DNA of 42,345 nt from a virus. Position 1 is the stretch's first letter. Each line of letters opens with the position of its first letter. Below, one piece after another: positions 3,054-36,032 of the stretch. The position numbers and the translations under genes were made by a program. The stretch covers positions 1 through 42,345 of IMG/VR virus record IMGVR_UViG_3300032820_002177. The stretch is one strand, 5' to 3'. The notes under the pieces are model-generated. The model was not told the origin of the DNA. It did not search any database and saw only the letters and a list, made by a program, of their open reading frames with translations.

Positions 3054-3082
3054 TTGACAAACAAAGACTTATACATTATAAT
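3054..3082 (+). promoter_or_regulatory. Host sigma-70-type promoter for the clamp gene
   Basis: TTGACA at 3054-3059 and TATAAT at 3077-3082, separated by exactly 17 bp, in the gap between polymerase and clamp. A good Shine-Dalgarno (AAGGAGAG) precedes the clamp ATG. Both hexamers match consensus perfectly, which implies strong early or middle transcription by host RNA polymerase. Confidence 0.88.
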
Positions 3083-10923: not shown

Positions 10924-11601
10924 ATGCTTACAACTGCGGAAATAATAAAAAAACGATTAAAAGAAGCAAACATTAGATATCATTGTAATGATAACATTTC
11001 TGAATTTATTGAAGAAGGTGAATTAGAAATTTTACAATTAGAAGTGGAAGATGCATTTAGTAATGTTTTGAATTCTTTAGTTATTGATACAAATAATGAT
11101 CATAATACTAAAGAAACAGCAAAACGTGTAGCAAAAATGTTTATTAAAGAAATCTTTAAAGGAAGATATGAACCTTGTCCAAAAGTTACAAGTTTTCCTA
11201 ATATGGGTTACAAATCACTTTATACTAGCGGACCTATTTCTATTCGTAGCACTTGCGCTCATCACTTTCAAAATATTGTTGGAAGTTGCTGGGTAGGTAT
11301 TATTCCAGAAGAAGAAGTTATTGGTCTTAGTAAATTTAATAGACTAGCACATCATATTGCAGAACGACCGCAAATACAAGAGGAAATGACTACACAAATT
11401 AGTAATGCGCTTATAGAGTACGCTAAAACAGAACATGTTGCTGTTGTTGTAAAAGCAGAACATCATTGTATGACACAACGAGGTGTTAAAGAACACGAAA
11501 GTGATATGACTACTGCAATTATGCGAGGAGCATTTGAAACTGATTCTGCATTAAAACAAGAATTTTATAGTGTTTGTTTAAGTATGAAAGGTCATAATTA
11601 A
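10924..11601 (+). CDS. folE: GTP cyclohydrolase I
   Basis: A 225-residue enzyme converting GTP to dihydroneopterin triphosphate, the first step of both folate and 7-deazaguanine (preQ0) synthesis. Zinc ligands are visible: C111 and the adjacent HH (STCAHHF, 109-115) and C182 (EHHCMTQRGV, 179-188). The core GLSKFNRLAHHIAERPQIQE (134-153) is the family signature. It has its own promoter and a leader hairpin. QueE follows after 2 bp, so the pair forms a dedicated unit for deazaguanine synthesis, not folate. Confidence 0.96.
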   Translation: MLTTAEIIKKRLKEANIRYHCNDNISEFIEEGELEILQLEVEDAFSNVLNSLVIDTNNDHNTKETAKRVAKMFIKEIFKGRYEPCPKVTSFPNMGYKSLYTSGPISIRSTCAHHFQNIVGSCWVGIIPEEEVIGLSKFNRLAHHIAERPQIQEEMTTQISNALIEYAKTEHVAVVVKAEHHCMTQRGVKEHESDMTTAIMRGAFETDSALKQEFYSVCLSMKGHN

Positions 11602-11603
11602 AT

Positions 11604-12476
11604 ATGAAATTAAGGTATTCAGAAGCATTTTATTCCGTCCAAGGCGAAGGAAAATTTGTAGGAGTACCTAGTGTATTTTTGCGTACTTTTGGTTGCAATT
11701 TTCGTTGTATGAACTTTAGCTTACCTCGAGGTACAAAAAAAGATAAACATAATCCCGAAGTAAAAAAATTATTAGATAATGGAGTACATTTAACTACAAA
11801 GAACTTTAATGATTTACCTATTATCCATACAGGATGTGATACATATGCAAGCATCTATCCCGAATTTAAAAAATTTATGATGGATAAAACAATAGACGAG
11901 GTTGTTGAACATCTTTTATCACTTACACCTGAAGGTAAATGGACAATGCAAAATGGGCAAGACATTCATCTTATCTTTACAGGAGGTGAACCTTTGTTAG
12001 GATGGCAAAGGCTTTATATAGAACTATTAGATCATCCTAAAATGAAAGACTTAAAAAATGTTACATTTGAAACAAATACTACCCAAACTCTTAGAAAGGA
12101 TTTCAAAGAATTTTTATCAACTCAGAACAGATTTAAAATTACTTGGAGTTGTTCCCCAAAACTTAGTATTAGCGGAGAATCTTGGGAAGATGCAATTAAC
12201 CCTAACTTGGCAGTTGATTATGCTAGTGTTAATGGTAGTGAACTTTATCTTAAGTTTGTTGTCGCTGACAAAGTGGATGTGGACGAAGTTGGAAAAGCTG
12301 TTAAAGAATACAAAAACGCTAACTTGGACTGTCCAGTCTATCTTATGCCGCTTGGGGGACGTTCTGAAGAATATAACTTTACCTATCCCGAAGTTGCGAA
12401 ACTCGCAATGGAAAAAGGATGGCGATTCACACCACGATTACACATCAGTCTCTTCGGAAATGCATGGGGAACTTAA
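11604..12476 (+). CDS. queE: 7-carboxy-7-deazaguanine synthase (QueE), radical SAM
   Basis: A 290-residue radical SAM enzyme that turns 6-carboxy-tetrahydropterin into 7-carboxy-7-deazaguanine. The N-terminus YSEAFYSVQGEGKFVGVPSV (5-24) is the QueE substrate-binding start, followed by RTFGCNFRC (27-35) and FTGGEPLL. The [4Fe-4S] cysteines are C31, C35 and C78 (GCDT). The third Cys, normally two residues after the second, is displaced by a 42-residue insertion. The GCDT context that ends the usual motif is intact, so it likely still closes the cluster site. It follows FolE closely and is presumably active. Confidence 0.93.
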   Translation: MKLRYSEAFYSVQGEGKFVGVPSVFLRTFGCNFRCMNFSLPRGTKKDKHNPEVKKLLDNGVHLTTKNFNDLPIIHTGCDTYASIYPEFKKFMMDKTIDEVVEHLLSLTPEGKWTMQNGQDIHLIFTGGEPLLGWQRLYIELLDHPKMKDLKNVTFETNTTQTLRKDFKEFLSTQNRFKITWSCSPKLSISGESWEDAINPNLAVDYASVNGSELYLKFVVADKVDVDEVGKAVKEYKNANLDCPVYLMPLGGRSEEYNFTYPEVAKLAMEKGWRFTPRLHISLFGNAWGT

Positions 12477-12549: not shown

Positions 12550-12929
12550 AATGGCTAGACAAACTATTAAAAAAAGAAAATTCTAATGAAGAAATAAAAG
12601 AACTTTCGAACGAAGAAATTCGTCGAAAAACATTAGAATTAGAAAAACAAGAAGCAACTAAAAATGGAAAACCATGGGTTGCTGTATTAGATACACAAAT
12701 TAATACTAACGATATTAGAAATGGTTTCTTTGAACTTGATTGGAACAACGAATTTATTGAGCAACTTATTGATGCAGGTTATTCAGGAGAAGCAAACGAA
12801 GAAATAGTTGATGCTTGGTTTAGAACTATTGTTATTCAAATGTTAGAAGAAGAAGGACTTGATCCTGATAGAGAAATGGGTTATATTAACGTAACACCTA
12901 TAGGAAAAGGTAAATCTGAAGTATCGTGA
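12546..12929 (+). CDS. Acidic conserved phage protein
   Basis: A 127-residue, strongly acidic protein. The N-terminal third is a charged helix (SNEEIKELSNEEIRRKTLEL). It is followed by GKPWVAVLDTQINTNDI, then FFELDWNNEFIEQLIDAG and EEIVDAWFRTIVIQML, ending GKSEVS. It looks like a conserved T4-like marine phage protein of unknown role. RBS GAGGATC precedes the ATG. The stop overlaps the next GTG start. Confidence 0.6.
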   Translation: MKWLDKLLKKENSNEEIKELSNEEIRRKTLELEKQEATKNGKPWVAVLDTQINTNDIRNGFFELDWNNEFIEQLIDAGYSGEANEEIVDAWFRTIVIQMLEEEGLDPDREMGYINVTPIGKGKSEVS

Positions 12930-13615
12930 TATATAAATTAAAAAGTAAACGTCCAGGAAGTCCATATGCTCCTAGTTGGGACATTAGTTTAGGATCATAT
13001 CAATGGGAAGACAGTGAAAAGATTAAAACTATAAAAGAATTTTTATTATCTAAAGAAGAAGAAATTCTTAAATTAGAGGTTAATCAAGATGCTGGAACTG
13101 GATTAGGTGAAGAATCTGTAACTACACGGTATGGACGTTACAATGTATTTGGGTTAGGGGAAGAATGTCCTGAAATAAACAACTTATTTAAATTTATACA
13201 AAAATCTTATCTTGAATTTATTAAAGAAGATGATACAATACTTCTTCCTTTAAAAATAATTTGTTGGTATAATATTATAAGAAAAGGACAAGAAATTAAA
13301 GAACACTCTCACGGAGCAGGTGAGATTATTTACCTAAGTGGAAATGTGCATCTAGATAATTATGACTCTGTAACTAGATATGTTGAGCGCGGAATGGACT
13401 GTTGTATGCCGAACATTGCTGGTGGATTAACGATTTTTCCTAGTTACGTTAGTCATAGTGTTGCAGAATGGCAAAACGATTATCCTCGACTAAGTTTAGC
13501 ATTTGATTTATATATTGATATACAACCATACTATCCTTCTGCAGACGATGACGGACATCCAATAACTTTTATGAACTTTGATATACTTAATCAGTTAGCT
13601 GACCCACGCAATTAA
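12926..13615 (+). CDS. 2-oxoglutarate/Fe(II) oxygenase-like protein
   Basis: A 229-residue protein starting with GTG at 12926 (overlap with the previous TGA). The C-terminal half follows the phage 2OG-Fe(II) oxygenase pattern: WYNIIRKGQEIKEHSHG (about 114-130, with H127 and H129), a strand IIYLSGNVHL, then GGLTIFPSYVSHSV (166-179, distal H177) and a substrate-Arg position in YPRLSLAFDL (R188). The acidic metal ligand is not obvious (E133 is a candidate). Substrate unknown; nucleotide or protein hydroxylation is possible. Confidence 0.65.
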   Translation: MIYKLKSKRPGSPYAPSWDISLGSYQWEDSEKIKTIKEFLLSKEEEILKLEVNQDAGTGLGEESVTTRYGRYNVFGLGEECPEINNLFKFIQKSYLEFIKEDDTILLPLKIICWYNIIRKGQEIKEHSHGAGEIIYLSGNVHLDNYDSVTRYVERGMDCCMPNIAGGLTIFPSYVSHSVAEWQNDYPRLSLAFDLYIDIQPYYPSADDDGHPITFMNFDILNQLADPRN

Positions 13616-16134: not shown

Positions 16135-17229
16135 ATGGCTGAGAATGACATCATTACTAGGACAGTAAGTCCTAATAAGGCTAAAAAAAGTATTAATCAT
16201 GCAATGCTTAAAAGGCGCCCGATTTTCTTATGGGGTCCTCCAGGCATTGGAAAATCGGATATTGTACGCCAAATTACAGATGATTTGGAAAAATCATTAT
16301 TAATTGATATTCGATTAAGTCTTTGGGAGCCCACCGATATTAAAGGCATTCCGTATTTTGATAGCAATACAGGCACAATGGTTTGGGCACCTCCTGGAGA
16401 ACTTCCTTCCGAAGAATTAGCTAAAAAATACAAGAATATTGTATTACTTTTAGACGAGATGAACTCTGCGGCGCCTGCTGTACAAGCGGCAGCATATCAA
16501 CTTATTCTTAATCGTCGAGTTGGTACATATAAATTACCTGACAATGTTATGATCGTTGCGGCAGGTAATCGAGAAGCAGACAAAGGTGTTACATATCGTA
16601 TGCCGGCTCCATTAGCTAATCGTTTTGTACACTTAGAAATGGCTGTCGACTTTGATGATTGGTTTCAATGGGCAGTAAATAATGATATCCACCAAGATGT
16701 AGTAGGATATCTTACTTTTGCTAAAAAAGATTTATACGATTTCGATCCTAAATCACCTAGCAGGTCATTTGCAACACCTCGTTCTTGGTCGTTTGTAAGC
16801 GAATTACTTGAAGATGATTTGGACGAAAATACCACTACCGATTTGGTTAGTGGCGCAGTAGGCGAAGGTCTTGCTGTGAAATTCACGGCTCACCGTAAAG
16901 TGGCGGCTAGCATGCCTAACCCAACTCATATTTTGGAAGGCAAAGTTAACGAGCTTAAGACTAAAGAAATCAGTGCCATGTATTCCTTAACAGTCTCGCT
17001 CTGTTACGAGCTAAAGGAGGCTTGTGATAAGAGTGATAAGAAGTTTGACGAAAAAGTTAATAACTTCTTAAGGTTCGCAATGGATAATTTTGATACTGAA
17101 TTAGTTGTTATGGGCATTAAACTTGCTCTTACCCAATATGGGTTACCAATTGATCCAGACGAAATTGCATGCTTTGATGAGTTCCATGAGCGTTATGGTA
17201 GGTATATTACTGCCGCCCAGAAGGCTTAA
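16135..17229 (+). CDS. MoxR-type AAA+ ATPase
   Basis: A 364-residue AAA+ ATPase. Walker A GPPGIGKS (34-41), Walker B LLLDEMN (104-110), sensor-1 region VAAGNREAD (141-149) and the RMPAPLANRF segment (155-164) with the likely arginine finger. MoxR ATPases work with VWA-domain partners as chaperones that remodel or metal-load protein complexes. The gene immediately downstream is such a partner. It has its own host-type promoter and is closed by a strong terminator, so the ATPase and its partner are made from separate transcripts. Confidence 0.92.
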   Translation: MAENDIITRTVSPNKAKKSINHAMLKRRPIFLWGPPGIGKSDIVRQITDDLEKSLLIDIRLSLWEPTDIKGIPYFDSNTGTMVWAPPGELPSEELAKKYKNIVLLLDEMNSAAPAVQAAAYQLILNRRVGTYKLPDNVMIVAAGNREADKGVTYRMPAPLANRFVHLEMAVDFDDWFQWAVNNDIHQDVVGYLTFAKKDLYDFDPKSPSRSFATPRSWSFVSELLEDDLDENTTTDLVSGAVGEGLAVKFTAHRKVAASMPNPTHILEGKVNELKTKEISAMYSLTVSLCYELKEACDKSDKKFDEKVNNFLRFAMDNFDTELVVMGIKLALTQYGLPIDPDEIACFDEFHERYGRYITAAQKA

Positions 17230-18889: not shown

Positions 18890-19525
18890 ATGAATAATCA
18901 AAATTATGCAGTTGTTCCTTTATTTTCTTCTCCCGTATTTGAGTCAGGAGAACAATTTGAAATATCTAAATCCTTTTTAGATTTTATCAAAAATGTAGAA
19001 GTAACTGCTTGTTCTCCTGAGAACAAGGAACATCGGAATTCAGTTAATTCATATATCTTAGAACTAAAAGAATTTGCTGACTTAAAAAAATTTATAGTAA
19101 AACAGCTTGCTATATATGTTTATGAAGTTTTAAAAATAACAACTGCACATAATTTTTATATAACACAATCTTGGTTAAATTTTAATGAACGTGGAGAGGA
19201 TCATCATCAACATTGGCATCAAAATAGTTTAATTAGTGGAATTTTTTATATAGCTGGAGATTTTTGTCCTACAGCCGTTTTAAGTAGAGAAGGTGATCCA
19301 CCTTTTGGTAAAAATTGGGCATTTGAATTAGAAGAATTTAATGTTTATAATAGTGGTAAATGGACATTTGAAAATAAAAAAAATTCACTGCTAATATTTC
19401 CTTCTACAGTAGAACATTATGTTGAAGCATATAAAGGTTTTGATACAAGAATTACTTTATCTTTTAATACTTTTGTTAAAGGAAATTTGGGCCTGGGTCC
19501 TAATAAAAATGAACTTATATTATGA
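18890..19525 (+). CDS. 2OG-Fe(II) oxygenase-like protein (inserted gene)
   Basis: A 211-residue protein of the phage 2OG-Fe(II) oxygenase type: SWLNFNERGEDHHQHWHQNS (94-113, His-rich metal region), SGIFYI (116-121), then SLLIFPSTVEHYVEAY (166-181, distal H176) and RITLSFNTFVKGNLG (R187). It has no clear Shine-Dalgarno sequence (the ATG follows an A-rich ATATCAAAA), unlike most neighbours. It is flanked by a 54-bp direct repeat, so it appears to be a later insertion or the product of a recombination that duplicated the flank. Substrate unknown. Confidence 0.8.
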   Translation: MNNQNYAVVPLFSSPVFESGEQFEISKSFLDFIKNVEVTACSPENKEHRNSVNSYILELKEFADLKKFIVKQLAIYVYEVLKITTAHNFYITQSWLNFNERGEDHHQHWHQNSLISGIFYIAGDFCPTAVLSREGDPPFGKNWAFELEEFNVYNSGKWTFENKKNSLLIFPSTVEHYVEAYKGFDTRITLSFNTFVKGNLGLGPNKNELIL

Positions 19526-20811: not shown

Positions 20812-22059
20812 ATGGCTTTAAGATTACGACGCGGAACCAATGCAGAAAGAGCTGTCATCACCCCTGTAGAAGGCGAATTGCTTTATACTACAGATACTAA
20901 AGATATATATGTAGGAGATGGTACTACGCAGGGTGGTACTAAAATAACAGCATTAACAGAGCTTGTAGAAGATACAACACCACAATTAGGTGGTAATTTA
21001 GATCTTAATAGCAACAATCTTACTGGCGTAGGAAATATAGTAATTGATGGTACGTTAACTGTTCCTCAAATAGTTACTGATCTCTTAGCTGATGATAGTA
21101 CATTAGTTTTTGATTCAGCAACTCAAAGATTAACAGTTGAAGATATTGTTATAGCAGGAAGTACAACTATTATTGACGGTAGTACTAATGCAACTAATCT
21201 TAACTCACATCATAGTACTGTAACACCAAGTCGGGTAAATTTAATACGATCAAAAGGCACGTCAGGCACGCCTGAAACCCTTGTAGATACTGACGACATA
21301 TTTCATCTTAATTTCGTAGGGTATGATGGTACACAATATACAACTGGATCAACTATTAAGAGTACAATAGACGGTACTGTATCTTCAGGTGTTATGCCAG
21401 GTAATTTAGAATTTACTGTTGGTACTAATCGCGTTCTTGATTTAAAAGCTAATGGTACCATAATCCTTCGAGGTGCAACTGCTTTAGTATCTGCTTTTGA
21501 CAGTACTAATGCTTATTCCTTTAACTTTACAAAATCAAGAGGAAATATTGATACACCTACAACAATTTTAGATGGAGATAAAATTGGAACTATAGGTTGG
21601 AGAGGACATGATGGTACTACTCATCTTATTGCTGCCGAAATTGACGCATACGCCAATTCTATTGAACCATCTAATATCCAAGGACTATTAAAATTTAATA
21701 TTTCTAATCCTTCTAGTACACTTGTAACTGCAATGCAAATTGACACAAATAAACTAGTAACAATGTATGGTGGCTTAACTGTAGCAGGTAGTAACATTGT
21801 ATTAGACGGTGTAAGCATTTTAGGAAATGCTATTTCTGCTAATGATTCTAACTCTAACTTAGAACTTGCAGGTGGAGGAACAGGTACAGTATCTACTGCA
21901 CACTTAACAACTACTAGCTATTTTCAAAATGCTGTATATGCAAACGATACAGCTAGAGATGCAGCCGTAACGTCACCTGCCGCTGGAATGGTAGTATTTA
22001 ATACAACAGGTACTAAATTCCAAGGATATACCGGCGCGGCCTGGGTTGATTTAAATTAA
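20812..22059 (+). CDS. Tail-fibre-like structural protein
   Basis: A 415-residue protein. The N-terminus LRLRRGTNAERAVITPVEGEL, then LYTTDTKDIYVGDGTTQGG (24-42), is the N-terminal motif shared by many phage fibre and tropism-determinant proteins. The middle is low-charge and repetitive, Thr/Asn/Asp/Gly-rich (DLNSNNLTGVGNIVIDG-like beta-helix turns). The C-terminus (ARDAAVTSPAAGMVVFNTTG, then TKFQGYTGAAWVDLN) is a typical fibre tip module. It likely contributes to host binding. A late promoter and strong RBS precede it. Confidence 0.85.
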   Translation: MALRLRRGTNAERAVITPVEGELLYTTDTKDIYVGDGTTQGGTKITALTELVEDTTPQLGGNLDLNSNNLTGVGNIVIDGTLTVPQIVTDLLADDSTLVFDSATQRLTVEDIVIAGSTTIIDGSTNATNLNSHHSTVTPSRVNLIRSKGTSGTPETLVDTDDIFHLNFVGYDGTQYTTGSTIKSTIDGTVSSGVMPGNLEFTVGTNRVLDLKANGTIILRGATALVSAFDSTNAYSFNFTKSRGNIDTPTTILDGDKIGTIGWRGHDGTTHLIAAEIDAYANSIEPSNIQGLLKFNISNPSSTLVTAMQIDTNKLVTMYGGLTVAGSNIVLDGVSILGNAISANDSNSNLELAGGGTGTVSTAHLTTTSYFQNAVYANDTARDAAVTSPAAGMVVFNTTGTKFQGYTGAAWVDLN

Positions 22060-22062
22060 TTC

Positions 22063-22091
22063 TTGACTTTTTATTTCGCCCATAGTATAAT
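22063..22091 (+). promoter_or_regulatory. Host sigma-70-type promoter for the radical SAM/oxygenase operon
   Basis: TTGACT at 22063-22068 and TATAAT at 22086-22091, 17-bp spacer, starting three bases after the fibre gene stop. GGGAGAA serves as RBS for the ATG at 22111. Confidence 0.88.
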
Positions 22092-22110
22092 ATAACTGTG
22101 GGAGAATTGT

Positions 22111-23052
22111 ATGGAGTATTTTGAATTAAATCCTGAAGATAATACATTTTCAAATATAGTAATAGACTTAACTCATCGATGTAATATGGAGTGTGCAAAC
22201 TGTTACATTCCTAATCGTGACATTCCGGATCTTAATAAAAACAAGCTATATAATTTTTTAGAAAAACTTCCTAATCGAACATATATTCGTTTAATAGGTG
22301 CTGAACCTACTATGCGAGAAGATATTTTTGAAATAATTTCAACTGTTAAAAAAATAGGACATAGACCTAGCCTTACTACTAATGGATTAAAACTCGGGCA
22401 ACTTTCTTATGTTGAAAAATTAAAAGAAGCCGGCTTACGCTTATTATTACATAGCATGAATGGTGCCGATGACGATGAAATATATAAAATTCTAGATAAT
22501 GGAAAATGGGCAACTATAAAAGTTCGAGCATTAGAAAATATTTTTAAATGCAAACTTCCAGTTAATACTGGAACAATTATAGCCAAGGGTACAAACGAAC
22601 AAACAATTGGAAGACAAGTTAAAACATTTATCAATTCCGCAATAAAAACTGGAGTTAATTTTAACACAACAAAACCTTATAATCGAATTACACCTGTACT
22701 AAGAATTAAAAGTGTAGGATTAATAGGAAGAAATATGGGAGGAAATTGTGCATATGAAATTTTTGAATTAGCACAATTGGCGTCTGAACAATTAGATATT
22801 TCTTATAATTTAATTACTAATAGTAAAGCTACTTCGGGTGTAGTAAAAGCAGGTGCATACGGTGAAGCAGAAACCAGTCTATTATTTCCTTATGAAACGG
22901 AAGCAGGGAAAATCTTTATAAGATTAATTGATTGGCGCATTAATGACGAAGGAGTTATCGACCATGACAATCCTAACAGAGGTCGTTTAACTGAAGACTG
23001 GACTGTTGCTCCTTTCTTTGAACATTTAAAGAAGAATGAATTTGGATATTAA
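22111..23052 (+). CDS. Radical SAM enzyme, substrate unknown
   Basis: A 313-residue radical SAM protein with the CX3CX2C cluster motif CNMECANC (C24, C28, C31) and a GAEPT (63-67) in place of the usual GGEP SAM-binding motif. TTNGLKL follows. No C-terminal SPASM cysteine cluster is seen. It is the first gene of an operon with a protein of uncertain fold and three oxygenase-like proteins, which looks like a small biosynthetic or tailoring pathway. Overlaps the next gene by 17 bp. Confidence 0.88.
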   Translation: MEYFELNPEDNTFSNIVIDLTHRCNMECANCYIPNRDIPDLNKNKLYNFLEKLPNRTYIRLIGAEPTMREDIFEIISTVKKIGHRPSLTTNGLKLGQLSYVEKLKEAGLRLLLHSMNGADDDEIYKILDNGKWATIKVRALENIFKCKLPVNTGTIIAKGTNEQTIGRQVKTFINSAIKTGVNFNTTKPYNRITPVLRIKSVGLIGRNMGGNCAYEIFELAQLASEQLDISYNLITNSKATSGVVKAGAYGEAETSLLFPYETEAGKIFIRLIDWRINDEGVIDHDNPNRGRLTEDWTVAPFFEHLKKNEFGY

Positions 23053-23674
23053 GGTAACAACACATAAAATTAATCGAGAAATTCAATCTGAAATTTTAAC
23101 ATTTCTTCAAGATCAAACAGAATTTGGTCGATTAGAAAAAAATTATACAAAAGAAAAATTAGATTTAGATATATGTGATGCTATTTCTATTATACGTGAT
23201 AAAAACGAAATACTTTCTTTTAGTACATTATTAAATCGAAATCTTTTTGGTAATGCTATTCGATGTGTAAATCGATTATATAAATCACCCGTATATCGAC
23301 ATCGTAATTTAGATCATTACAATAGAATTAAACTTGTTACATTCGAAATGATCCAGCAACAAATGTCATTTGCAAAAGAAAATAATTATGATATTATCTT
23401 TATGAGTCGAGAATTAAAAGATATTAATGTTAAAAATGAAAAATCTTTTAATTCAACTGCTATGAATAGATGGAAAGAATATCTACCTGATAAAAATAAC
23501 TGGATTTATAGTCCAGATATGCATTTAGTTATTCCTCCAAAAACTACTAAAACAAACTGGCAATCAATTCTTTATTATAAATTAAAAGATAATGTCGGAT
23601 TACAACTAGAAAAAATCTCATTAAATAAATATAATGAGTTGTTTATTAAAGGGGATATTAATGAAAATTTCTAA
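23036..23674 (+). CDS. Unrecognised protein, possibly GNAT-like
   Basis: A 212-residue basic protein. The part about residues 95-130 (IKLVTFEMIQQQMSFAKENN, then YDIIFMSREL) and AIRCVNRLYKSPVYRHRN (about 75-92) resemble the late strands and helix of GNAT-type acyltransferases, but the acetyl-CoA loop is not clear. If correct it would acylate a product of the radical SAM enzyme. Confidence in the fold is low; the gene itself is secure from its coupled position. Confidence 0.45.
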   Translation: MNLDIKVTTHKINREIQSEILTFLQDQTEFGRLEKNYTKEKLDLDICDAISIIRDKNEILSFSTLLNRNLFGNAIRCVNRLYKSPVYRHRNLDHYNRIKLVTFEMIQQQMSFAKENNYDIIFMSRELKDINVKNEKSFNSTAMNRWKEYLPDKNNWIYSPDMHLVIPPKTTKTNWQSILYYKLKDNVGLQLEKISLNKYNELFIKGDINENF

Positions 23675-24527
23675 TATAAAATTTGGAATTCAAGTTGAAG
23701 ATATTGACTATCACAGTATAGACGATGCTGTTACTGTCAGAAATTTTATTGGTACTAAAAGAATTGTAGTAGTCAAAAATCCAACACCTGTTCCTGCTAA
23801 AGATCTTTTAACTTTTTACCAAAATATTGGAGATGTAGTTGCTCAAGAAAAGGAAGTAGTAGGATCTGGAGTAGACGGATTACATGAATTTGTAAGAGTT
23901 AAACGCAATGGTTTATTTACTGGTGCTGAAGATGGAGAATTAGAATGGCATTGCGCAGGAATGAATAGAAACGGTGCAGAAGATATAGTTGCAATATATA
24001 TGAATAAACCTGGAGTAGACGGTGGAGACACTTATTTTAGTGATACTCAAACTGCATATGAAGATTTAGACGAAGAAACAAAAGAAAAAATTGATGGACT
24101 AAAATCAAAAATAGTAAACTATCCTGAGAAAATGCTAGTAGGAGATACATTTTATAAAAATGTTTTTGCAAACGAACAAACTTTTAAAGCATTTAAAGAT
24201 ATAGATGGCATTGCAGCTCATACAAAACAAACATCGCGAAAGAACCTTGTTACTACTCACCCATTAAACAATAAAAAAGGTCTTCATTACCCCTGGTCGG
24301 TTATTAGAGGTTTTGCTGGTATAGATAAAAGAGAAAGTCATGATCTATATTATAAACTTAAAAATCATACATTAAATGACAAATATGTATACAAACATGT
24401 ATGGGATCAATATGATATTTGTTTAAGTGATCAACATCATAGTTTACATAGGAGAGATGCTTATGACGGTGACCGTGAATTATGGAGATCTGGAATCTGG
24501 TACAGATCTGAAAACGTTACTGTATGA
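23661..24527 (+). CDS. TauD/TfdA-like Fe(II)/2-oxoglutarate enzyme with HxA in place of HxD
   Basis: 288 residues from ATG 23661 (RBS AAAGGGG). The TauD layout is clear: LEWHCAGMNRNG (H97, C98, A99) where the family has WHxD, then GGDTYFSD, and LSDQHHSLHRRDAYDG with distal His H263 and the following RELWRSG Arg for 2-oxoglutarate. The Asp metal ligand is replaced by Ala99. In Fe/2OG halogenases such as SyrB2 the same Asp-to-Ala/Gly change opens a halide site. In other cases it marks loss of activity. The next gene is a second TauD-like protein with an intact HxD. Confidence 0.8.
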   Translation: MKISNIKFGIQVEDIDYHSIDDAVTVRNFIGTKRIVVVKNPTPVPAKDLLTFYQNIGDVVAQEKEVVGSGVDGLHEFVRVKRNGLFTGAEDGELEWHCAGMNRNGAEDIVAIYMNKPGVDGGDTYFSDTQTAYEDLDEETKEKIDGLKSKIVNYPEKMLVGDTFYKNVFANEQTFKAFKDIDGIAAHTKQTSRKNLVTTHPLNNKKGLHYPWSVIRGFAGIDKRESHDLYYKLKNHTLNDKYVYKHVWDQYDICLSDQHHSLHRRDAYDGDRELWRSGIWYRSENVTV

Positions 24528-25173
24528 ACATGGATTCGTTCATATAAAAAATGACCAACCATTAACTATAAACCAATTTGCTGAATTTGCTAAAACTCTT
24601 GGCAAACCATTAACAACAGTAAAACATGTACTAGACGACGATCGCATAGTACAAGAAGTTAGTAGTAACGAATTATTCAAAAATAATGAAGTTGATTGGC
24701 ATAATGATTGGAGTTATGGACGAGGAAATTATTTTGGTGTAACTTTATATAATAAATCTAATGGTAATTTAGCTCCTACACATTTTATTGATATGAAGAT
24801 TGCATTAGAAGCATATGATAACATAGATTTATTAAGAAGGGTAACAGGATATTATTATCCTCCAAAAGATTTACATTATTGTTTTACTACAAAACAACTA
24901 GAAATACTAAAAATGCAAAATATACATAGACCTTTTATATTTGAGCATCATGTAACTAAGGATAAAGTTCTTTATTTTAGTCCAGGAACATTATTGAAGG
25001 CGGATGGTCCAGACATTGATATTGATAAACTAGTAGAACACTGTTGTCAATTCTCTTGGCAACACGAATGGAAAGATAACGACATAATAATTTATGATAA
25101 TATTAGAGTAATGCATAAACGAGATGCATTTACCGGCGAACGTGTCTTATGGCGAACACAATTTATAATATAG
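24463..25173 (+). CDS. TauD/TfdA-like Fe(II)/2-oxoglutarate dioxygenase
   Basis: 236 residues from ATG 24463, chosen because AGGAGAG (24450-24456) is at ideal spacing. It overlaps the previous gene by 65 bp. The facial triad is complete: H80 and D82 (VDWHNDWSYG) and distal H218 (IRVMHKRDAFTGERVLWRTQ), with the 2OG-binding Arg following. Likely hydroxylates or desaturates a small molecule. It follows a TauD-like protein with a defective or altered triad, so one may act on the product of the other. Confidence 0.85.
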   Translation: MTVTVNYGDLESGTDLKTLLYEHGFVHIKNDQPLTINQFAEFAKTLGKPLTTVKHVLDDDRIVQEVSSNELFKNNEVDWHNDWSYGRGNYFGVTLYNKSNGNLAPTHFIDMKIALEAYDNIDLLRRVTGYYYPPKDLHYCFTTKQLEILKMQNIHRPFIFEHHVTKDKVLYFSPGTLLKADGPDIDIDKLVEHCCQFSWQHEWKDNDIIIYDNIRVMHKRDAFTGERVLWRTQFII

Positions 25174-25185
25174 GCTTAGTTAAAA

Positions 25186-25767
25186 ATGGAAATAGATTAT
25201 TTAGATCCAAATACAAATATTGATGATTTTGTAATTCCCTTAAATATTAATTATTCTCAGGAAATTTTTCAAAATATATTTTACGAGTATTATAATAAAG
25301 AAGTTAAAAGTAATTATACAAGCTATGATGCCTGCTCTGAACTAAAAGAATATTTTACAGATTTCTTTAAAAATCAGTGGCCTTTATCAAAACATTTTAT
25401 GCTTGGTTGGTACTCTCCAAAAAGCAGACCTAATAAAAACTCTGTACCTATCCATATTGACTACGATGTAGCTTCTATAGTGATTCCTATTTTAGGTTGT
25501 ACAAAAGAATGTTTAACAAATATTTTTTTACCTGTTAATGAATTAAATTTAAATAACAACAATAGAGCAATACTTCCACAAGGAGAATTTAAACATATTG
25601 CAAGTTTTGCATTTACTAATCAAATATGTTTATTAAATACTGGCATGTGTCATAATATTTGGAAAACATCTACAACCGATACTATACGTTATCTATGGAG
25701 ATGCGAGTCTAATTTATCTTGGAACGATGCAAAAAGAATTATTTTAGAAGCAAATGATTCGACCTAA
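25186..25767 (+). CDS. Oxygenase-like protein (HxD...H triad)
   Basis: A 193-residue protein with VPIHIDYDVASIVIPILG (87-104), where H90-x-D92 suits a metal site. The strand CLLNTGMCHNIWKTS carries H156, and TIRYLWRCE a candidate Arg. This is the order expected for a small double-stranded beta-helix 2OG-Fe(II) enzyme. The family is not named with certainty. Last gene of the operon; its 3' end overlaps the convergent minus-strand gene by 29 bp. Confidence 0.55.
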   Translation: MEIDYLDPNTNIDDFVIPLNINYSQEIFQNIFYEYYNKEVKSNYTSYDACSELKEYFTDFFKNQWPLSKHFMLGWYSPKSRPNKNSVPIHIDYDVASIVIPILGCTKECLTNIFLPVNELNLNNNNRAILPQGEFKHIASFAFTNQICLLNTGMCHNIWKTSTTDTIRYLWRCESNLSWNDAKRIILEANDST

Positions 25768-27268
25768 TTCCATCGCATACTTTTTCTAATAATTTAGAAA
25801 AAGCAACAATATCTCCATCTTGAAAAACTTTAGTATAAAATTCTTTTGAGGACATTATAATATTAAGTTCGTTTGCTGTACCATTAGGAAATAATGCATT
25901 ATCAAAAGTTTTTATAATTAAATCTGTACGTAATCCATTATTATTTTTCATGTCATCAAATACTGCACTTAATACAAATTTTAAATCTCTATTACATTTT
26001 TGACTATGACCTACTGATTCAATTTCGTTACTATTTTTTTCTAATACTAGGTTTACTAATTCTTCTCCCAATGCATCTAAAACAGGAGGTGAACTTTTTA
26101 ATTGACTAATTTTTTTATTAATACTAGTAATTCCATCCCAATATCTAGTTGCTACTGCAATAGTTTCAAAATTACCACCATTTTGTAAATCAGTTACAAT
26201 TGCATCAATATTATAACCTGTGTCTCGACTACATTTCTGAAATTGAATTTCATCATGAACACTAGGATAAGTTGTCTTAAACCAAGTCATTGCTTCTTCT
26301 ACAATAGATTTTTTATGTGTTAAAATTAAATTACTAGCATTTGAATATTTAGAATCTTGCGATAGAAAAGTAGGAACAGCACTAAGACCTTTTACAGTAA
26401 TATTATTAACAGTATTTTTTAACTCAGTTACTCTTTCTGCTGAATCAACTTCACCATTAGTAATTAATAATTTATTAATTATTTCTTCTACTTTATTATT
26501 AACAGCAACAGCATAAGTTTCTTCTTTAGGCCCTAATTGCGAAGTTAACTCTGGCCATTCAACAACTCTTTCTACACTAGGTTTAGGTATTCTGAAAGCC
26601 GGACGGTCGTACGTTCCTATTCCTAACATAAATCCTGTATGTCTTGAATCTCCTAATAACGGTATAGAAACCCTATCTTGTACGTAACCAAAACATTGAC
26701 AAAATGCTGCATCTAATTCGTAACTATTTGCAAGCACTGATATTACATAAGCATACATAGCAGACGCTGCTAAATAATTCATTTGATAACCTGCACTTCG
26801 TTCTAGCCAAATATCGTCAGTTGACAGGGTATTATTTTTAATTCTTTCGCCATTAGATTTAGACTGAAACTCTGAATATTTAAATACTAAAAGATAAGGT
26901 GCTAAAACTTGAGGATTAAAACTAAAATACTTGTTATTTCCTTCTGTATGAAATGGTAAATCAGATGTTAATAACCCCCTAGTAATTTCATCTGCTTCTG
27001 CATATTTTATTTTATTTAACTGAAAACTAGTATCTATTAAATGATGAAGTGTGTGGGGAAGAAGGTCTCTCTTTTTTGCATGAAATTCTGGACCATATAC
27101 TTCTACTTTAAAATCATAATTAGAATTTTTTACTGGTGTTAAATCTATTGCTTTCTTTAAAATAGCTTCAATATCTTCTTTTTTAGGGGCACTATCTTTA
27201 AAAAATTTATGATTTTCGCGACGTTCCATTGCTTGGAACATATCAATTTTAGGGGCAAATTTTAGCAT
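25739..27268 (-). CDS. Nitroreductase-like domain fused to T4-cyanophage-type structural repeats
   Basis: A 509-residue protein. Residues about 10-60 (FQAMERRENHKFFKDSAPKK, then a PVKNSNYDFKV segment) and about 158-225 (GYQMNYLAASAMYAYVISVL; HTGFMLGIGTYDR) match the FMN nitroreductase fold. From about 250 on it is helical, with two copies of a KC.RD motif: QKCSRDTGYNIDAIVTDL (344-361, then GGN and RYWDG) and QKCNRDLKFVLSAVFDDM (423-440). This recalls the KCRRDxGYIVDAxxxDL...GGN repeats of T4-like cyanophage structural proteins. A TATAAATA late promoter and strong RBS precede it, so a virion-associated flavoprotein is possible. Confidence 0.7.
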   Translation of the reverse strand: MLKFAPKIDMFQAMERRENHKFFKDSAPKKEDIEAILKKAIDLTPVKNSNYDFKVEVYGPEFHAKKRDLLPHTLHHLIDTSFQLNKIKYAEADEITRGLLTSDLPFHTEGNNKYFSFNPQVLAPYLLVFKYSEFQSKSNGERIKNNTLSTDDIWLERSAGYQMNYLAASAMYAYVISVLANSYELDAAFCQCFGYVQDRVSIPLLGDSRHTGFMLGIGTYDRPAFRIPKPSVERVVEWPELTSQLGPKEETYAVAVNNKVEEIINKLLITNGEVDSAERVTELKNTVNNITVKGLSAVPTFLSQDSKYSNASNLILTHKKSIVEEAMTWFKTTYPSVHDEIQFQKCSRDTGYNIDAIVTDLQNGGNFETIAVATRYWDGITSINKKISQLKSSPPVLDALGEELVNLVLEKNSNEIESVGHSQKCNRDLKFVLSAVFDDMKNNNGLRTDLIIKTFDNALFPNGTANELNIIMSSKEFYTKVFQDGDIVAFSKLLEKVCDGIRSNHLLLK

Positions 27269-30365: not shown

Positions 30366-31318
30366 TAGTGCTTACGATAAGGTTGTCGCCAATCACGAGG
30401 ATCATTTGGATCATAGTAGTTTGCAATATAATCGGCATCATCTTTACTAGGCAAAATAAGTTCTTCTGGAACTGAATAAACTTTTGTTTTAGGTAATAAA
30501 TCTAATTCAGTCATTTCTTTATCAAGAACTTCTGACCAAGCAATATGACCACATTCCTGAAAATGGTGCCATCGCCCATCTTTTTTAGGATTGTGTCCTT
30601 TATTAATTAAATGCGCATAATAAATTTCTTCAGGATCAAAAGGATGCCGATAATAAATATCTTTTGCTAAAATTTTACACCCTTCTAAATCAAAAGATTT
30701 ATCTTCTTGATTAAACTCATCAGGGAAAGGATGCTTAAGAACACCTTTTATTTTATGAAATGGTTTAACACATTCTACTGCATTAAACATATAATATGAT
30801 ATATTTTTATCTCGCAAAAAAGAACGTAAAAGTTGATATTGAAAAAGATGATTATACACTTGAACATCATAAGGTTGAAGAGCTATTAAATCTCTCCATA
30901 ATTTCCAAAATTTTACAATTTTTTTATCTTGAAGTTTTGTCCAGTTTGGCATTAAATCAATATGCGCCGAAAGCAATTTTAAATTACCTTCATAAGGAAG
31001 TGCTAATCGGGGATAACCTGACCAGCCAATTAATGAAATTATCTCAGAAGGATCATATTGTGTTAATAATTGATTTACTTTCCTTACTGTATTTCTCATT
31101 ATTGTTATATTATCTAATCCTGCATGACATACATTAACGTGACGTAAATTATTTTTTCTAGAAAGGTGTCCTGCAAACGAACGATATTGTTCTTCTCTAC
31201 GTATTTCTTTACGAAAACGATGACTTTTTGGATAACCTTGTTCTCCTAAAATTTCAAATCCTGCAGAATGACTACAACCTGTTACTAATAATACTTTAAG
31301 TTTAGATGTATCTAACAT
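30365..31318 (-). CDS. SGNH-hydrolase-like protein
   Basis: 317 residues from ATG 31318 (RBS GGAGG; stop of the upstream gene overlaps by one base). LLVTGCSHSAGFE near the N-terminus matches the GDSxS-type block I of SGNH esterases, NVCHAGLDNITIMRNT matches block II/III, and HHFQECGHIAWSEVL near 255-270 matches the C-terminal block with the catalytic His. This family of phage proteins may be a sugar O-acetyl esterase or transferase. The Cys in place of the block I Asp is unusual. Confidence 0.62.
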   Translation of the reverse strand: MLDTSKLKVLLVTGCSHSAGFEILGEQGYPKSHRFRKEIRREEQYRSFAGHLSRKNNLRHVNVCHAGLDNITIMRNTVRKVNQLLTQYDPSEIISLIGWSGYPRLALPYEGNLKLLSAHIDLMPNWTKLQDKKIVKFWKLWRDLIALQPYDVQVYNHLFQYQLLRSFLRDKNISYYMFNAVECVKPFHKIKGVLKHPFPDEFNQEDKSFDLEGCKILAKDIYYRHPFDPEEIYYAHLINKGHNPKKDGRWHHFQECGHIAWSEVLDKEMTELDLLPKTKVYSVPEELILPSKDDADYIANYYDPNDPRDWRQPYRKH

Positions 31319-33402
31319 CAAAATTCCTCCTTGCTTACCATTAAATCACCTCCACACAAACAATTTAAAGAAGAACACATTATTGGTCTGCGTAAAGAAT
31401 TCCAATCAATTCTTTGCCAATGATCTAATGTACCTATAAACCCTCCTTCATGACAATTACCTCTTTTAATGCTTCCATCACGATCTATAAATAACGATTC
31501 TTTACCAATATGACAATTATAATTAAAAAAGTTTGTTTCTCCATTTCTAATAGGATCTTCTGATAATTCAAATACTTTTTGATCTTCATTCTTATATTTA
31601 ATAAAAATATCCTTAGCAGGGTGTTTTTCTCCACTATGGGTACCTCTGTGACGTCTTATATGTTTAAAATTATTAATAAATTCTAATTGATCATCTGTAT
31701 ACTTTATATCACAAAGTTTAAAACCTATATTACCATACTGTTCATCAATAATAACTGCATCGATATTAGCTTTTGTTTCTTCTTTAATACGTTCTAAAAA
31801 ATCCATTGTTTGATCCCAGTATAACGGGTCTAACATTATTCTAGCTGTTGTGGGTGCTAAACCAAAAGATATATTTAACTTTCTAATATATTCATCTTCA
31901 GTCTTATTCGGAAACACCATTGCTGGATGAAAACTAGCACATACTTGTGTAACATATTTAAAAGTTCTTTCTATAAATTGCTCTGACCTTGTAAGATTCG
32001 TTGATAAATTTATATGATGAGAGTTGTTATGTACTTCTTTAACTAGTTGAGAGAAAAAAGGACTTAATGTTGGTTCTCCTCCACTTAATGAAAAAATTAT
32101 TTTACGGTTGTCATTTTCTATAGAATAAAAATTAAATAAATGTTTTAAAAATGGTAAAATATGATGCCAGTTATATTTGTGATTTTTTCCATTTTGAAGA
32201 ATAGGTGGACAATAACGACAACTATATGTACATACATCATTTATTATCCAAGTAATTATACTAGTTTTAGGATTAAAAATTTTTTCTATCTTTTTACCTA
32301 CTACTGGTTTTGGTTTTTTCCAAACAGGTTTACGATGTATCGGCGTAGAAAATGGTGGTCTTTTATGGTGAGCGTCTCTTGGAACTACTGCCATTGAATA
32401 AATGGTATTAAATTGTTTAAAATTATCATTTATAATACCTATACTTGGCAAATAAAACTCTTCACATTGTTCCCAAATCAGTTCCCCAATCTTAATATAC
32501 CCTTCTCGATTTTCAATAAAATTACCAAATTTAAATCCTAATTTTTCATTAACTTGTAAATCATGCCATTTAGTAGAATACCAATATATATCCTTAGGAG
32601 TGTCATTATTAGGAGATAATCTAACATGCACTTCATTAGACCAAGTTGTTTGTGGAGCAATTGCATTTCGATCTATTGCATCTTGATCACCATCTATAAC
32701 AATATGATGTAAATTTTTTCCTAAGGTGTTATAACCCAAACAAAAATCTCCAAATTTTAAAAATGGACTCATACTATAAAAATCTTCCGATTCTAAAATA
32801 AAATCTGTTCTTGGATTAAAACTAATAGTCATATTACCACGAGTATTATATCCTTCTTCTACCGGGGTTACTTCATGTGTATGTATTAATGAATTTAAAG
32901 TTTGAAAAGCACTATTAAGTTCTTCATTAAAAGTTCTTCCTGGCCATATATTTGCAAGGGGAGAATTTTCAGGTATTCTTAAATACGCATCTCCCCACCA
33001 GTCTTCTTCTAATTTTTCTTCTAAACGTTCTCCATACCTCTCATAACATTCATGAAGCACATTGAGGAAATTATTATCTAACCGTGTATTACCTCTTGAA
33101 TCAATAAAAGTTTTAATTTTAGGAATTTGTTCGTCATAATATTCGTTTATTTTTTTAATAATAGTTTCTAATTTTTTTAAATTTTTATTCCTGTCGGGAG
33201 AAGATGTTTTAAATGCCCGATCTTTATAATCATGAGCACCGCTAGTTAATTCTATAAAATGCTCTAACCATTTATGTGCTATAGGAATATCATATAATTG
33301 AAAGAACAAATCTAAGTAATCCCAAGTAGCAGGATCCGTTAATGTAATTCTTATTACAGGATCTACTACTACATCATTAAGTTTATCGTATTCAATTTGC
33401 AT
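31318..33402 (-). CDS. Two-part radical SAM protein with C-terminal Cys cluster
   Basis: A 694-residue protein. Residues 1-380 are a domain I do not recognise (Trp/Asp-rich, ESEDFYSMSPFLKFGDFCLG at about 204-223). Residues from about 380 form a radical SAM core: CTYSCRYC (C391, C395, C398) and LSGGEPT (439-445). The C-terminus has several Cys (YNCHIGKE, RGNCHEGG, IMCSSLNCLCGGD), consistent with a SPASM-type auxiliary iron-sulfur site. SPASM enzymes often modify peptides. The N-terminal domain may bind the protein substrate. Overlaps both neighbours. Confidence 0.83.
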   Translation of the reverse strand: MQIEYDKLNDVVVDPVIRITLTDPATWDYLDLFFQLYDIPIAHKWLEHFIELTSGAHDYKDRAFKTSSPDRNKNLKKLETIIKKINEYYDEQIPKIKTFIDSRGNTRLDNNFLNVLHECYERYGERLEEKLEEDWWGDAYLRIPENSPLANIWPGRTFNEELNSAFQTLNSLIHTHEVTPVEEGYNTRGNMTISFNPRTDFILESEDFYSMSPFLKFGDFCLGYNTLGKNLHHIVIDGDQDAIDRNAIAPQTTWSNEVHVRLSPNNDTPKDIYWYSTKWHDLQVNEKLGFKFGNFIENREGYIKIGELIWEQCEEFYLPSIGIINDNFKQFNTIYSMAVVPRDAHHKRPPFSTPIHRKPVWKKPKPVVGKKIEKIFNPKTSIITWIINDVCTYSCRYCPPILQNGKNHKYNWHHILPFLKHLFNFYSIENDNRKIIFSLSGGEPTLSPFFSQLVKEVHNNSHHINLSTNLTRSEQFIERTFKYVTQVCASFHPAMVFPNKTEDEYIRKLNISFGLAPTTARIMLDPLYWDQTMDFLERIKEETKANIDAVIIDEQYGNIGFKLCDIKYTDDQLEFINNFKHIRRHRGTHSGEKHPAKDIFIKYKNEDQKVFELSEDPIRNGETNFFNYNCHIGKESLFIDRDGSIKRGNCHEGGFIGTLDHWQRIDWNSLRRPIMCSSLNCLCGGDLMVSKEEF

Positions 33403-34648
33403 TTTCTAAAACCTTATAAAATTCCGGAAATGTTTTTTTAAAACTTGTATTCCGTATTTTGTCTAATTTATCTCGATAATCAATAAATTGAGGATATAAA
33501 TCTGATAAATCTTCACTATCCATAAAATCTAATTGCGGAAGTATTTTTTCTCGCCACTGTTTATTATATTTTAACTCTTCAAAACTTTCCCATTTTTTCC
33601 TTATTTCAGATTTAATTGATTTAGGAAAAACTTTAATAGATAGGTATCTCGGCCAATGTACTGTTCCGGCATGAAATACTCCACTATGATGTAAATGGCC
33701 TACTCTTTTAAATTTACTCTTAAGCATGTTTTCTGCAAACTCAGGTATATAATACACGTTCATTGCATGAATTGTTGCTAAAACTTTCACATCAATATTG
33801 TCAGGTGTTTTATCTAACTTTTTAAGATTTCCAGAAATTAATTCCCAATTAGCCGGGTATCGTACATATTCTAAATGTTCTCCCCAAGCGTCTATACTAG
33901 CCATTACTTCTACAAACTTAAATTCCTTCCATAAATTTACTATTTCCTCAGAAATAATAGTTCCATTAGTATGATAACGCAATTCTATATTTTTACTATA
34001 ACCAAACTTTACTAAATTCTTTATTAACTGTAAATGTTCTTTTATAAGCAGAGGTTCGCCGCCAGCAAAAATAAGATGCCTTATAGTAGAAAACATTGGT
34101 TCAAAATCTTTCCAAAGTTTTTCTTTTTTATACCATTCAAATTGATCGGTATCTATATTTGATTTATGCTCCCAGTCCCATTTAGCATCTGTCTCTAAAA
34201 TATCTTTAAGTTTTTTAGCATTACTTAACCACATACTACTATCTTGAGGACGACACATAACACATTGTAAGTTACAAGTATTACCTAATCTTAAATCTAG
34301 AGTTATAAAATTTTCAGTTAGTGTTCCATCTTTCTTTGTAGATGAAATTAATTCTGCAATTCTATCCTCTCCTAATTTATTCTCCCAAAGAACATTTTCA
34401 TTTATTCTATGACTGCGGATACCTGCCGCTTCTTCTTTATAGCAATGGTCACATGCTGATACCTTTTCACCTTTTAACATTTTTACACGAGCATCTTTAA
34501 AATGCTCACTATTCCATATAGTATCAACACTATCCTTATTAAAATTTAACTTATGAGAATTCTGTGCTACACAACAAAGTAAAGCACTTCCGTCGGTCCA
34601 AGTCGCAATATGGGTCCAAGGTAAGATACAAAATGTTTCTGATTTATT
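33392..34648 (-). CDS. Radical SAM protein with N-terminal Cys region (twitch-type), paralogue 1
   Basis: 418 residues from ATG 34648, which overlaps the upstream stop by 5 bp; no strong RBS, so translation is probably coupled. Cysteines C8, C26-C27, C67 and C70 (FCILPW, LLCCVAQ, CDHCYKEE) precede the radical SAM core CNLQCVMC (C126, C130, C133) and FAGGEPLL (196-203). The N-terminal set resembles a SPASM/twitch auxiliary cluster placed before the core. It is clearly paralogous to the next gene upstream. Substrate unknown. Confidence 0.83.
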   Translation of the reverse strand, partial: NKSETFCILPWTHIATWTDGSALLCCVAQNSHKLNFNKDSVDTIWNSEHFKDARVKMLKGEKVSACDHCYKEEAAGIRSHRINENVLWENKLGEDRIAELISSTKKDGTLTENFITLDLRLGNTCNLQCVMCRPQDSSMWLSNAKKLKDILETDAKWDWEHKSNIDTDQFEWYKKEKLWKDFEPMFSTIRHLIFAGGEPLLIKEHLQLIKNLVKFGYSKNIELRYHTNGTIISEEIVNLWKEFKFVEVMASIDAWGEHLEYVRYPANWELISGNLKKLDKTPDNIDVKVLATIHAMNVYYIPEFAENMLKSKFKRVGHLHHSGVFHAGTVHWPRYLSIKVFPKSIKSEIRKKWESFEELKYNKQWREKILPQLDFMDSEDLSDLYPQFIDYRDKLDKIRNTSFKKTFPEFYKVLENAN

Positions 34649-36032
34649 CATTTTTAAAATCATCCCAAACACTTGGATCCACTTGTAGTTTTTCATAATA
34701 AAGATCTAACTCCGATGCTAAATCGGGTATCAAGTCTTTAAAACTTTGTGAACGCTTTTTATCTAAAATGTCTGTCATTGTTAAAAATTGTTTATATAAC
34801 TCGTCATGCTTTACATGTAACTCTTTTCTAAATAAAGAAATTATTCCATCAACACTTTCTTTTACTAAGTTATTACTAGAATAACGATCACTACTATCTC
34901 TATATACTTCTAAATTTTTTGCGCCTATTTCTCGAATACTCTGAGGAATTATAGTTACATCTAAAAATGTTGGATGATTATTAATTAAAAAATTTACATT
35001 AATATTCTTTTTATAATCCTTGGATATACGATCGGCATAATACAAAAGATTATGACAATCTAAAATGTTATAAACTTGTACAACAGGTGTTATTCCTAAA
35101 TCTACATTAGATAATTCTGCTAACTTTCTAAAATTCTTTTCAACATGGGTCCATTTAGCAGGATATCTAATATAATCATTAACTTTTTCATATCCATCTA
35201 AACTACAATTAATTTTAAGGCTCTTAAATTGGCTAACTAATTTTAAAAATTTATCAGTAACATTAGTACAATTAATATTAAAAAATAATTCTATATCTTG
35301 ATTATATCCTGCAGAAATACATTCTTCCATAAATCTATAATTATTTTCTATTAATGTCGGCTCTCCTCCTGTCATATAAACTTTCTTAAGATTAGGAATC
35401 ATAGATATAATTTCATTCCATAAAAAATTTCGATCAAATACAGTTTGAGCCTCTTTTAAATGAAGAGGATTTGCCCCAAACTGGTCTCTCCATACCTTAG
35501 AATATTCATTATATACAGGACTATCAGCTTCTACACCCCCTTCAAAAAGTTGGAAATGCTCTTTTGCTAACTGACTACTATTCCAAGGATTACACATACG
35601 ACATTTTAAATTACATAAATTTCCTAATCTTAAATCTAAATAAACAGGCGGCAATGAGATTTTATAATTATTATCTATAGCTTCTTGAATATAATCATTA
35701 AATACTTCTCCTAATCTATGCTCCCATTCTGCTGTCATCATTGAACGAAAACTTATTGCACCCATTTCTTCTTGCTTATAACAATTAGCACATGCTTCTA
35801 ATTTTGTACCATTAAGCATTGCTTTTCGAGTTTCAATCATTGTATAACTATTCCAAGACTCTAAAAGACTTGTATCTTCAATACTTAATTTTTCTCCAAG
35901 CGTTCCGTCAATTGTAGGTTCTTCTCTTAAAATTGCTTTAGGACCAAATGCTATACAACAGTATCTTGTAAAAGTATCTGTATTAAGCATAAGACCGATA
36001 AAGGGCATTGCACAAAACGATTTATTTTTCAT
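34644..36032 (-). CDS. Radical SAM protein with N-terminal Cys region (twitch-type), paralogue 2
   Basis: 462 residues. Same layout as its neighbour: C7, C25-C26, C81 and C84 (SFCAMPF, RYCCIAF, CANCYKQEE), then the core CNLKCRMC (C140, C144, C147) and YMTGGEPTL. Shared phrases include LDLRLGN.CNL.C and IRYPA.W. The tandem pair probably arose by duplication and may act in sequence or as a heterodimer. Overlaps the preceding gene by 11 bp. Confidence 0.83.
   Translation of the reverse strand: MKNKSFCAMPFIGLMLNTDTFTRYCCIAFGPKAILREEPTIDGTLGEKLSIEDTSLLESWNSYTMIETRKAMLNGTKLEACANCYKQEEMGAISFRSMMTAEWEHRLGEVFNDYIQEAIDNNYKISLPPVYLDLRLGNLCNLKCRMCNPWNSSQLAKEHFQLFEGGVEADSPVYNEYSKVWRDQFGANPLHLKEAQTVFDRNFLWNEIISMIPNLKKVYMTGGEPTLIENNYRFMEECISAGYNQDIELFFNINCTNVTDKFLKLVSQFKSLKINCSLDGYEKVNDYIRYPAKWTHVEKNFRKLAELSNVDLGITPVVQVYNILDCHNLLYYADRISKDYKKNINVNFLINNHPTFLDVTIIPQSIREIGAKNLEVYRDSSDRYSSNNLVKESVDGIISLFRKELHVKHDELYKQFLTMTDILDKKRSQSFKDLIPDLASELDLYYEKLQVDPSVWDDFKNE

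Follow-up and report, generated by a model that had tools for sequence, protein, structure and literature searches.

Fe(II)- and 2-oxoglutarate (2OG)-dependent halogenases carry Ala or Gly in place of the carboxylate of the facial triad, so that a halide can bind the iron (PMC8407142; PMC12346261). An HXG/A motif instead of HXD/E is used as an annotation rule for these enzymes, a rule that comes with the caution that false positives may occur (PMC12871659). Marine viruses are known to encode a halogenase of another kind, the flavin halogenase VirX1 of cyanophage Syn10 (PMC8407142). In addition, a study of the pelagimyophage host recognition cluster, from marine T4-like phages, notes radical S-adenosylmethionine (radical SAM) cassettes in a tail-fibre island, in which VrlC and gp14 flank the tail fibres and glycosyltransferases, and proposes that the glycosyltransferases modify the host O-chain (PMC7029224). 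Here, we describe a five-gene operon in the 42,345-base linear virus record IMGVR_UViG_3300032820_002177, which was analysed whole and is called the window. One of its products, TauD1, has HXA where its family has HXD and, judged by sequence, is a candidate halogenase, with the chance of that assignment being correct put well below even. The promoter, the genes and the upstream border of the operon are as follows.

20812-22059, + strand: tail-fibre-like gene, upstream border of the operon (Mtd_N domain; PHROG tail fibre match)
22063-22091, + strand: predicted sigma-70-type operon promoter, TTGACT-17-TATAAT (11/12 consensus matches; predicted from sequence)
22111-23052, + strand: radical SAM enzyme (rSAM), 313 aa (Pfam PF04055, Radical_SAM, E 5e-16)
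23036-23674, + strand: GNAT-fold protein (p2), 212 aa (AlphaFold2 (AF2) model; Foldseek and VIA matches to GNATs)
23661-24527, + strand: TauD1, TauD-family protein with HXA instead of HXD, candidate halogenase (Pfam TauD, E 9e-29)
24463-25173, + strand: TauD2, canonical TauD-family dioxygenase, HND...H...R (Pfam TauD, E 4e-24)
25186-25767, + strand: p5, Asp_Arg_Hydrox-like Fe/2OG oxygenase, HxD...H...R (conserved triad)

The metal site of TauD1

TauD1 belongs to the TauD/TfdA family by profile (PF02668, 101.6 bits compared to a cut-off of 27), but it lacks the canonical HXD/E facial triad, and HXA was found in all of its orthologues. The initial annotation had recorded two TauD-like proteins, as the Pfam matches bear out, and had overlooked this site, the most unusual feature of the operon. 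The metal-ligand position, A99, is Ala in all 20 HXA rows of the alignment and Asp in Escherichia coli TauD and in 5bke. PDB alignments (5bke) show the Asp at this column independently of the E. coli row. The surrounding motif is WHSAG or WHCAG in the orthologues and YHCAG in one of them (L003).

The remainder of the site is intact. H97, T124, H263, R272 and R276 are invariant across all 20 HXA rows, and the same five positions are also kept in rows with HXN, HXH or HXD, with one exception at T124. In TauD, the Thr and the first Arg, at the T124 and R272 positions, bind 2OG. The dN/dS of TauD1 was 0.04-0.09 between close pairs, and the values for TauD2 and rSAM were similar. The invariant site residues, together with the low dN/dS, indicate that the TauD1 site has been kept with one ligand changed. 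In the tree, the HXA rows formed a single clade (support 100/100), and the split between rows with HXD and those lacking the carboxylate had a support of 82/89.

The AF2 model of TauD1 has a TauD fold over its whole length (VIA Z 24), as do TauD, AAD-2, RdpA, AtsK and ScoE. In contrast to these dioxygenases, and to TauD2 with its full HXD...H...R, the TauD1 orthologues all lack the metal carboxylate. Of the features expected of an Fe/2OG halogenase, TauD1 has the replacement of Asp/Glu by Ala as well as the two His and the 2OG residues in a 2OG fold, where residues 88-100 are modelled at low confidence. It has the 2OG oxygenase fold, both His and the 2OG-site Arg in common with SyrB2, BesD, WelO5 and DAH, which have HXA/G. 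This candidate differs from them in being a TauD/TfdA protein (PF02668) with hydroxylases as its nearest solved relatives and HXN or HXH sister proteins. VirX1 is a flavin enzyme that acts on aromatics, and its fold and chemistry are unrelated to those of TauD1.

Conservation of the gene set

The initial annotation proposed a search for the same gene set in other phages and in bacterial clusters. When IMG/VR was scanned with the rSAM protein, at least 91 relatives were found. A scan with the single TauD1 sequence returned nothing and a profile scan was needed, which gave 19 contigs with at least 51% identity, including three (L086, L091 and L097) that the earlier rSAM scan had not listed. Near-copies occur among the 19, and 14 TauD1 loci are non-redundant. 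The order rSAM-GNAT-TauD1-TauD2 was kept in all 19, with the GNAT gene directly before TauD1 and TauD2 less than 1 kb after it. Thus, singly scattered homologues, the outcome that the initial annotation had set against its own proposal, were not what was seen. Of the 19 contigs, 12 have a p5-family gene no more than 5 kb from TauD1, on the same strand in seven. The genes around the four-gene core vary between relatives, whereas the core is constant. rSAM genes without TauD1 are common and often stand beside GNAT, TauD2 or other 2OG genes.

A DNA-level search against isolated phages gave no match, and the only hit of a TauD1 protein search was to Mosig EXVC030M, which has HXN. HXN proteins of the TauD family were also seen in L064-L076 and other viral contigs, and HXH proteins in L101-L103 and L107. 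Viral TauDs that lack the carboxylate and have the rest of the site intact occur among L064-L076, L083, L100-L113, L230 and L234. HXD and HXN TauDs stand in tandem in L100, L108, L110, L230 and L234. Relatives add a KdsA/DAHP-synthase-type gene, a desaturase and an acyl carrier protein (ACP). Viral rSAM relatives lie near genes for fatty acid desaturase-like proteins and ACPs at L049:4369-6990 and L057:5339-7190. Together with the Bdellovibrionota locus L126 described below, these loci hint that part of the rSAM family may act on acyl or lipid substrates.

In bacteria, no relative came up when genomes were scanned with the TauD1 profile; the rSAM-profile scan reached relatives in metagenome-assembled genomes (MAGs), including apparently true chromosomes. 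These carried partial versions of the gene set: rSAM with a TauD (HND) in a Geminicoccaceae contig (L115), a GNAT-like open reading frame (ORF) 5' of rSAM in alphaproteobacterial contigs (L120-L123, identified by eye), and rSAM-rSAM-TauD (HTN)-2OG-GNAT in Bdellovibrionales (L119). In Bdellovibrionota, rSAM was found with Asp_Arg_Hydrox-like genes (L125, L126) or desaturase-like genes (L126, L128), one example being the rSAM relative beside a desaturase-like gene at L126:1457-3144. A class-wide search from L119 added an HXD and HXA TauD tandem (L273), an HXN TauD in a cluster with what appear to be a SPASM rSAM, a desaturase, a GNAT and several 2OG oxygenases (L280), and an HXN-TauD cluster of the same kind with a broken TauD (L282). 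Together, L119, L273, L280 and L282 are chromosomal clusters of the Bdellovibrio class that combine rSAM, GNAT, 2OG oxygenases, desaturase-like proteins and TauDs without the carboxylate. These bacterial clusters suggest that the parts list is common to phages and bacteria. Occurrence in viruses only was considered and rejected, as HXA and HXN TauDs are present in bacteria.

One contig, the 335-kb L114, is filed under Neomarinimicrobiota and is a phage relative of the window, with 84% and 74% identity to the window genes at 16135 and 17338. Therefore, this Neomarinimicrobiota MAG is contaminated by virus. The slot after the fibre gene in L114 holds a different rSAM/TauD2 cassette.

Proposed pathway and competing explanations

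The linkage in all 19 contigs and the partial versions in bacterial genomes support the proposal of the initial annotation that these enzymes build or tailor a small molecule. The most probable function of the operon is to tailor, within the infected cell, either a small molecule or a group at the surface. We tentatively favour a co-inherited tailoring pathway, read from a host-type promoter, in which TauD1 would halogenate at its carboxylate-less iron site. The viral and bacterial loci that combine rSAM, GNAT, 2OG oxygenases, fatty acid desaturase and ACP are counted in its favour. In this pathway, the operon would be expressed during infection, and rSAM would alter a small precursor by a C-H or C-C change that is hard to achieve. 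Acyl transfer or related chemistry with coenzyme A (CoA) or ACP could fall to the GNAT-fold protein, and TauD2 could hydroxylate with its normal 2-His-1-carboxylate iron site. TauD1 would most likely hold chloride or bromide on the carboxylate-less iron and halogenate an unactivated carbon, and p5 might add one more oxidation. The product would probably be either a small molecule or a sugar or lipid group at the surface, and the steps, in whichever order they run, would take place in the cell and not in the virion. A bolder proposal, which we regard as doubtful, is that TauD1 is a viral Fe/2OG radical halogenase that founds a halogenase lineage within TauD/TfdA and puts seawater chloride or bromide into a halogenated product in infected cells, with the HXN and HXH relatives as other cases in which nature has redesigned the 2OG iron site.

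Several observations weigh against halogenation by TauD1. Exchanging Asp for Gly or Ala in 2OG hydroxylases mostly gave no halogenation (PMC12346261), so an Ala or Gly residue is not sufficient alone. The pLDDT score of the TauD1 model is below 50 at residues 88-100, which is the motif itself, leaving the metal site unproven. The nearest solved matches are TauD/TfdA hydroxylases, and no known halogenase was among the sequence and structure matches listed, although such an absence proves nothing. The sister proteins bear HXN or HXH and, thus, a protein without the carboxylate is not necessarily a halogenase. Finally, the HXA TauD1 is always followed by an HXD TauD, in 19/19 contigs and 14/14 non-redundant loci, and this bears on the second of the alternatives below.

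One alternative concerns the substrate and is compatible with either view of TauD1. Instead of acting on a free small molecule, the operon could decorate a surface glycan, a lipid or the tail fibre, for host recognition or to exclude competing phages. We give this a real likelihood, still short of even. In its favour, the operon adjoins the fibre gene and an island of glycosyltransferase-like, SGNH-like and further rSAM proteins, pelagimyophage glycosyltransferases were proposed to modify the host O-chain (PMC7029224), and relatives carry KdsA/DAHP-synthase-type, desaturase and ACP genes. However, none of the five operon proteins matches a family of sugar or lipid enzymes, and the neighbouring genes differ among relatives whereas the four-gene core stays.

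The constant pairing of TauD1 with an HXD TauD makes a heteromer with a non-catalytic subunit a serious rival. TauD1 would then be a non-catalytic or altered partner of TauD2, or an oxygenase that uses two protein ligands only. Tandems of HXD with HXN or HXA are seen repeatedly, in other viruses and also in a bacterium, and the changed ligand is A, N or H across the wider clade. A dead subunit, however, would not need the other metal and 2OG positions, which are all invariant in TauD1, and no HXD TauD was nearby in 11/16 HXN and 3/3 HXH loci, some of which are cut by contig ends. We consider this explanation, the main rival to halogenation by TauD1, rather unlikely.

Synthesis of a modified nucleotide or DNA base, or of a viperin-like chain terminator, is very improbable. 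In its favour, there are weak matches of rSAM to models of prokaryotic viperins (PADLOC pVip, 8e-14; NCBIfam, 37 bits), FolE and QueE of the preQ0 pathway are also in the window and one natural product pathway includes an Fe/2OG halogenase whose substrate is 2'-dAMP (PMC12766721), but FolE and QueE lie 10 kb from the operon and Pfam gave no match to known base-transfer or TET/JBP families among the ORFs searched.

If TauD1 does halogenate, marine T4-like and jumbo phages would own C-H halogenation chemistry, virus infection would be linked to marine organohalogens, and a new enzyme scaffold would be available. Even if it does not, a TauD clade with Ala, Asn or His in an otherwise intact site probes the limits of the 2-His-1-carboxylate rule. 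The four-gene operon is also a defined target for learning which products arise from the radical SAM cassettes in islands of marine phages.

Partner enzymes, promoter and genomic setting

The rSAM assignment of the initial annotation was upheld by its Pfam match. The cluster motif CxxxCxxC reads CNMECANC, and its Cys residues are invariant in the alignment of relatives, where a C-terminal motif, RGRLT...APFFEHxK, is conserved as well. The nearest solved relatives are Tes, MoaA and BlsE, which have the rSAM core domain in common with the phage protein; for Tes and MoaA, the shared part covers roughly profile positions 16-223. In contrast to them, the phage rSAM has its own C-terminal part with this motif, and it gave no SPASM match. 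It scores below every curated equivalog cut-off among the models listed. Identification of rSAM as a viperin was rejected, with the NCBIfam model viperin_w_prok scoring 37 bits against a cut-off of 180 and the TrsS, Tes and MoaA models scoring higher.

The protein described as possibly GNAT-like, p2, does have a GNAT fold: its AF2 model has a pLDDT of 90 and its best VIA Z, to GNATs, is 10.1. Acetyltransf_1 matched four of the 26 members of its family. The R/QxxGxG/A acyl-CoA loop was not visible by eye in the 26-row alignment, so the use of acetyl-CoA by p2 is unproven. TauD2 is a TauD/TfdA protein by both profile (86 bits compared to a cut-off of 27) and site, with HXD in every row. For p5, the description as a third oxygenase-like protein fits the conserved site H90-x-D92...H156...R166. 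The window p5 itself has no credible family match; PF05118 (Asp_Arg_Hydrox) matches five of the 17 members of its alignment, with a best E of 1e-6.

The five + strand ORFs (22111-25767) are packed as the initial annotation stated, with overlaps of 17, 14 and 65 nt and then a 12-nt gap before the last ORF. The probable start codons of TauD1 and TauD2 are ATG 23661 and ATG 24463, and a purine-rich stretch lies 5' of each. The promoter in front of the operon was likewise found where it had been described. Promoter-like sites of at least 9/12 were not in excess in the 6 kb scanned (34 compared to 35.5 in shuffles). On the + strand of the whole window, five sites of at least 11/12 were seen compared to 2.3 expected in shuffles, and all five have a 17-nt spacer and lie immediately 5' of gene starts. 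From these sites, the virus appears to use host-type promoters, with the operon beginning at one of them. The other four near-perfect sigma-70 promoters on the + strand are at window positions 3054, 6345, 10848 and 17276. In L001 and L010, the rSAM gene likewise has 11/12 and 12/12 sites in front of it, and most other relatives have none. The T4-type late promoter TATAAATA was not enriched (4 found compared to 13.7 expected).

The source is a large marine bacterial virus. Its DNA polymerase shares 45-49% identity with the polymerases of the jumbo phages Phosso, Atu_ph07 and Vibrio phage 2.275.O, and the Gp23 capsid protein is present in five of 10 contigs bearing rSAM relatives. Rfam and tRNA scans gave no matches.

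The initial annotation placed the operon between a late fibre gene and a convergent structural block. The fibre gene is upstream and the convergent block downstream, but this minus-strand block (25.7-39.2 kb) is mostly non-structural, with more biosynthetic genes, and looks like another biosynthetic island. Downstream of the operon, only 25739-27268 (tail-fibre-like) and 39.6-42.3 kb appear structural. Three more rSAM proteins are encoded in a row on the minus strand at 31318-36032, one with a SPASM domain match, and their neighbours are glycosyltransferase-like and SGNH hydrolase-like proteins, these two partly identified by eye. The best reading is that the operon is placed in a phage host-recognition island.

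The gene set was also said not to be a standard phage module, and this stands only in part, as radical SAM cassettes were already known from the tail-fibre island of marine T4-like phages (PMC7029224). The likeness of the window, which is a fragment, to the pelagimyophage cluster rests on fibre, glycosyltransferase-like and rSAM genes. By term search, the pelagimyophage study names radical SAM cassettes but neither this gene set nor an HXA TauD. Thus, the type of region is known. No published account of the operon itself, or of an HXA TauD in a virus, turned up in a literature search that was light on subscription journals. Overall, what the initial annotation observed was confirmed, and its interpretation was partly supported.

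Elsewhere in the window, a gene for GTP cyclohydrolase I (FolE) adjoins a QueE-like radical SAM gene at 10924-12476. The pair forms part of the preQ0 pathway, and there may be 7-deazaguanine in the phage DNA. Two further Fe/2OG oxygenases (2OG-FeII_Oxy_5) are encoded outside the operon, at 18890-19525 and 12926-13615.

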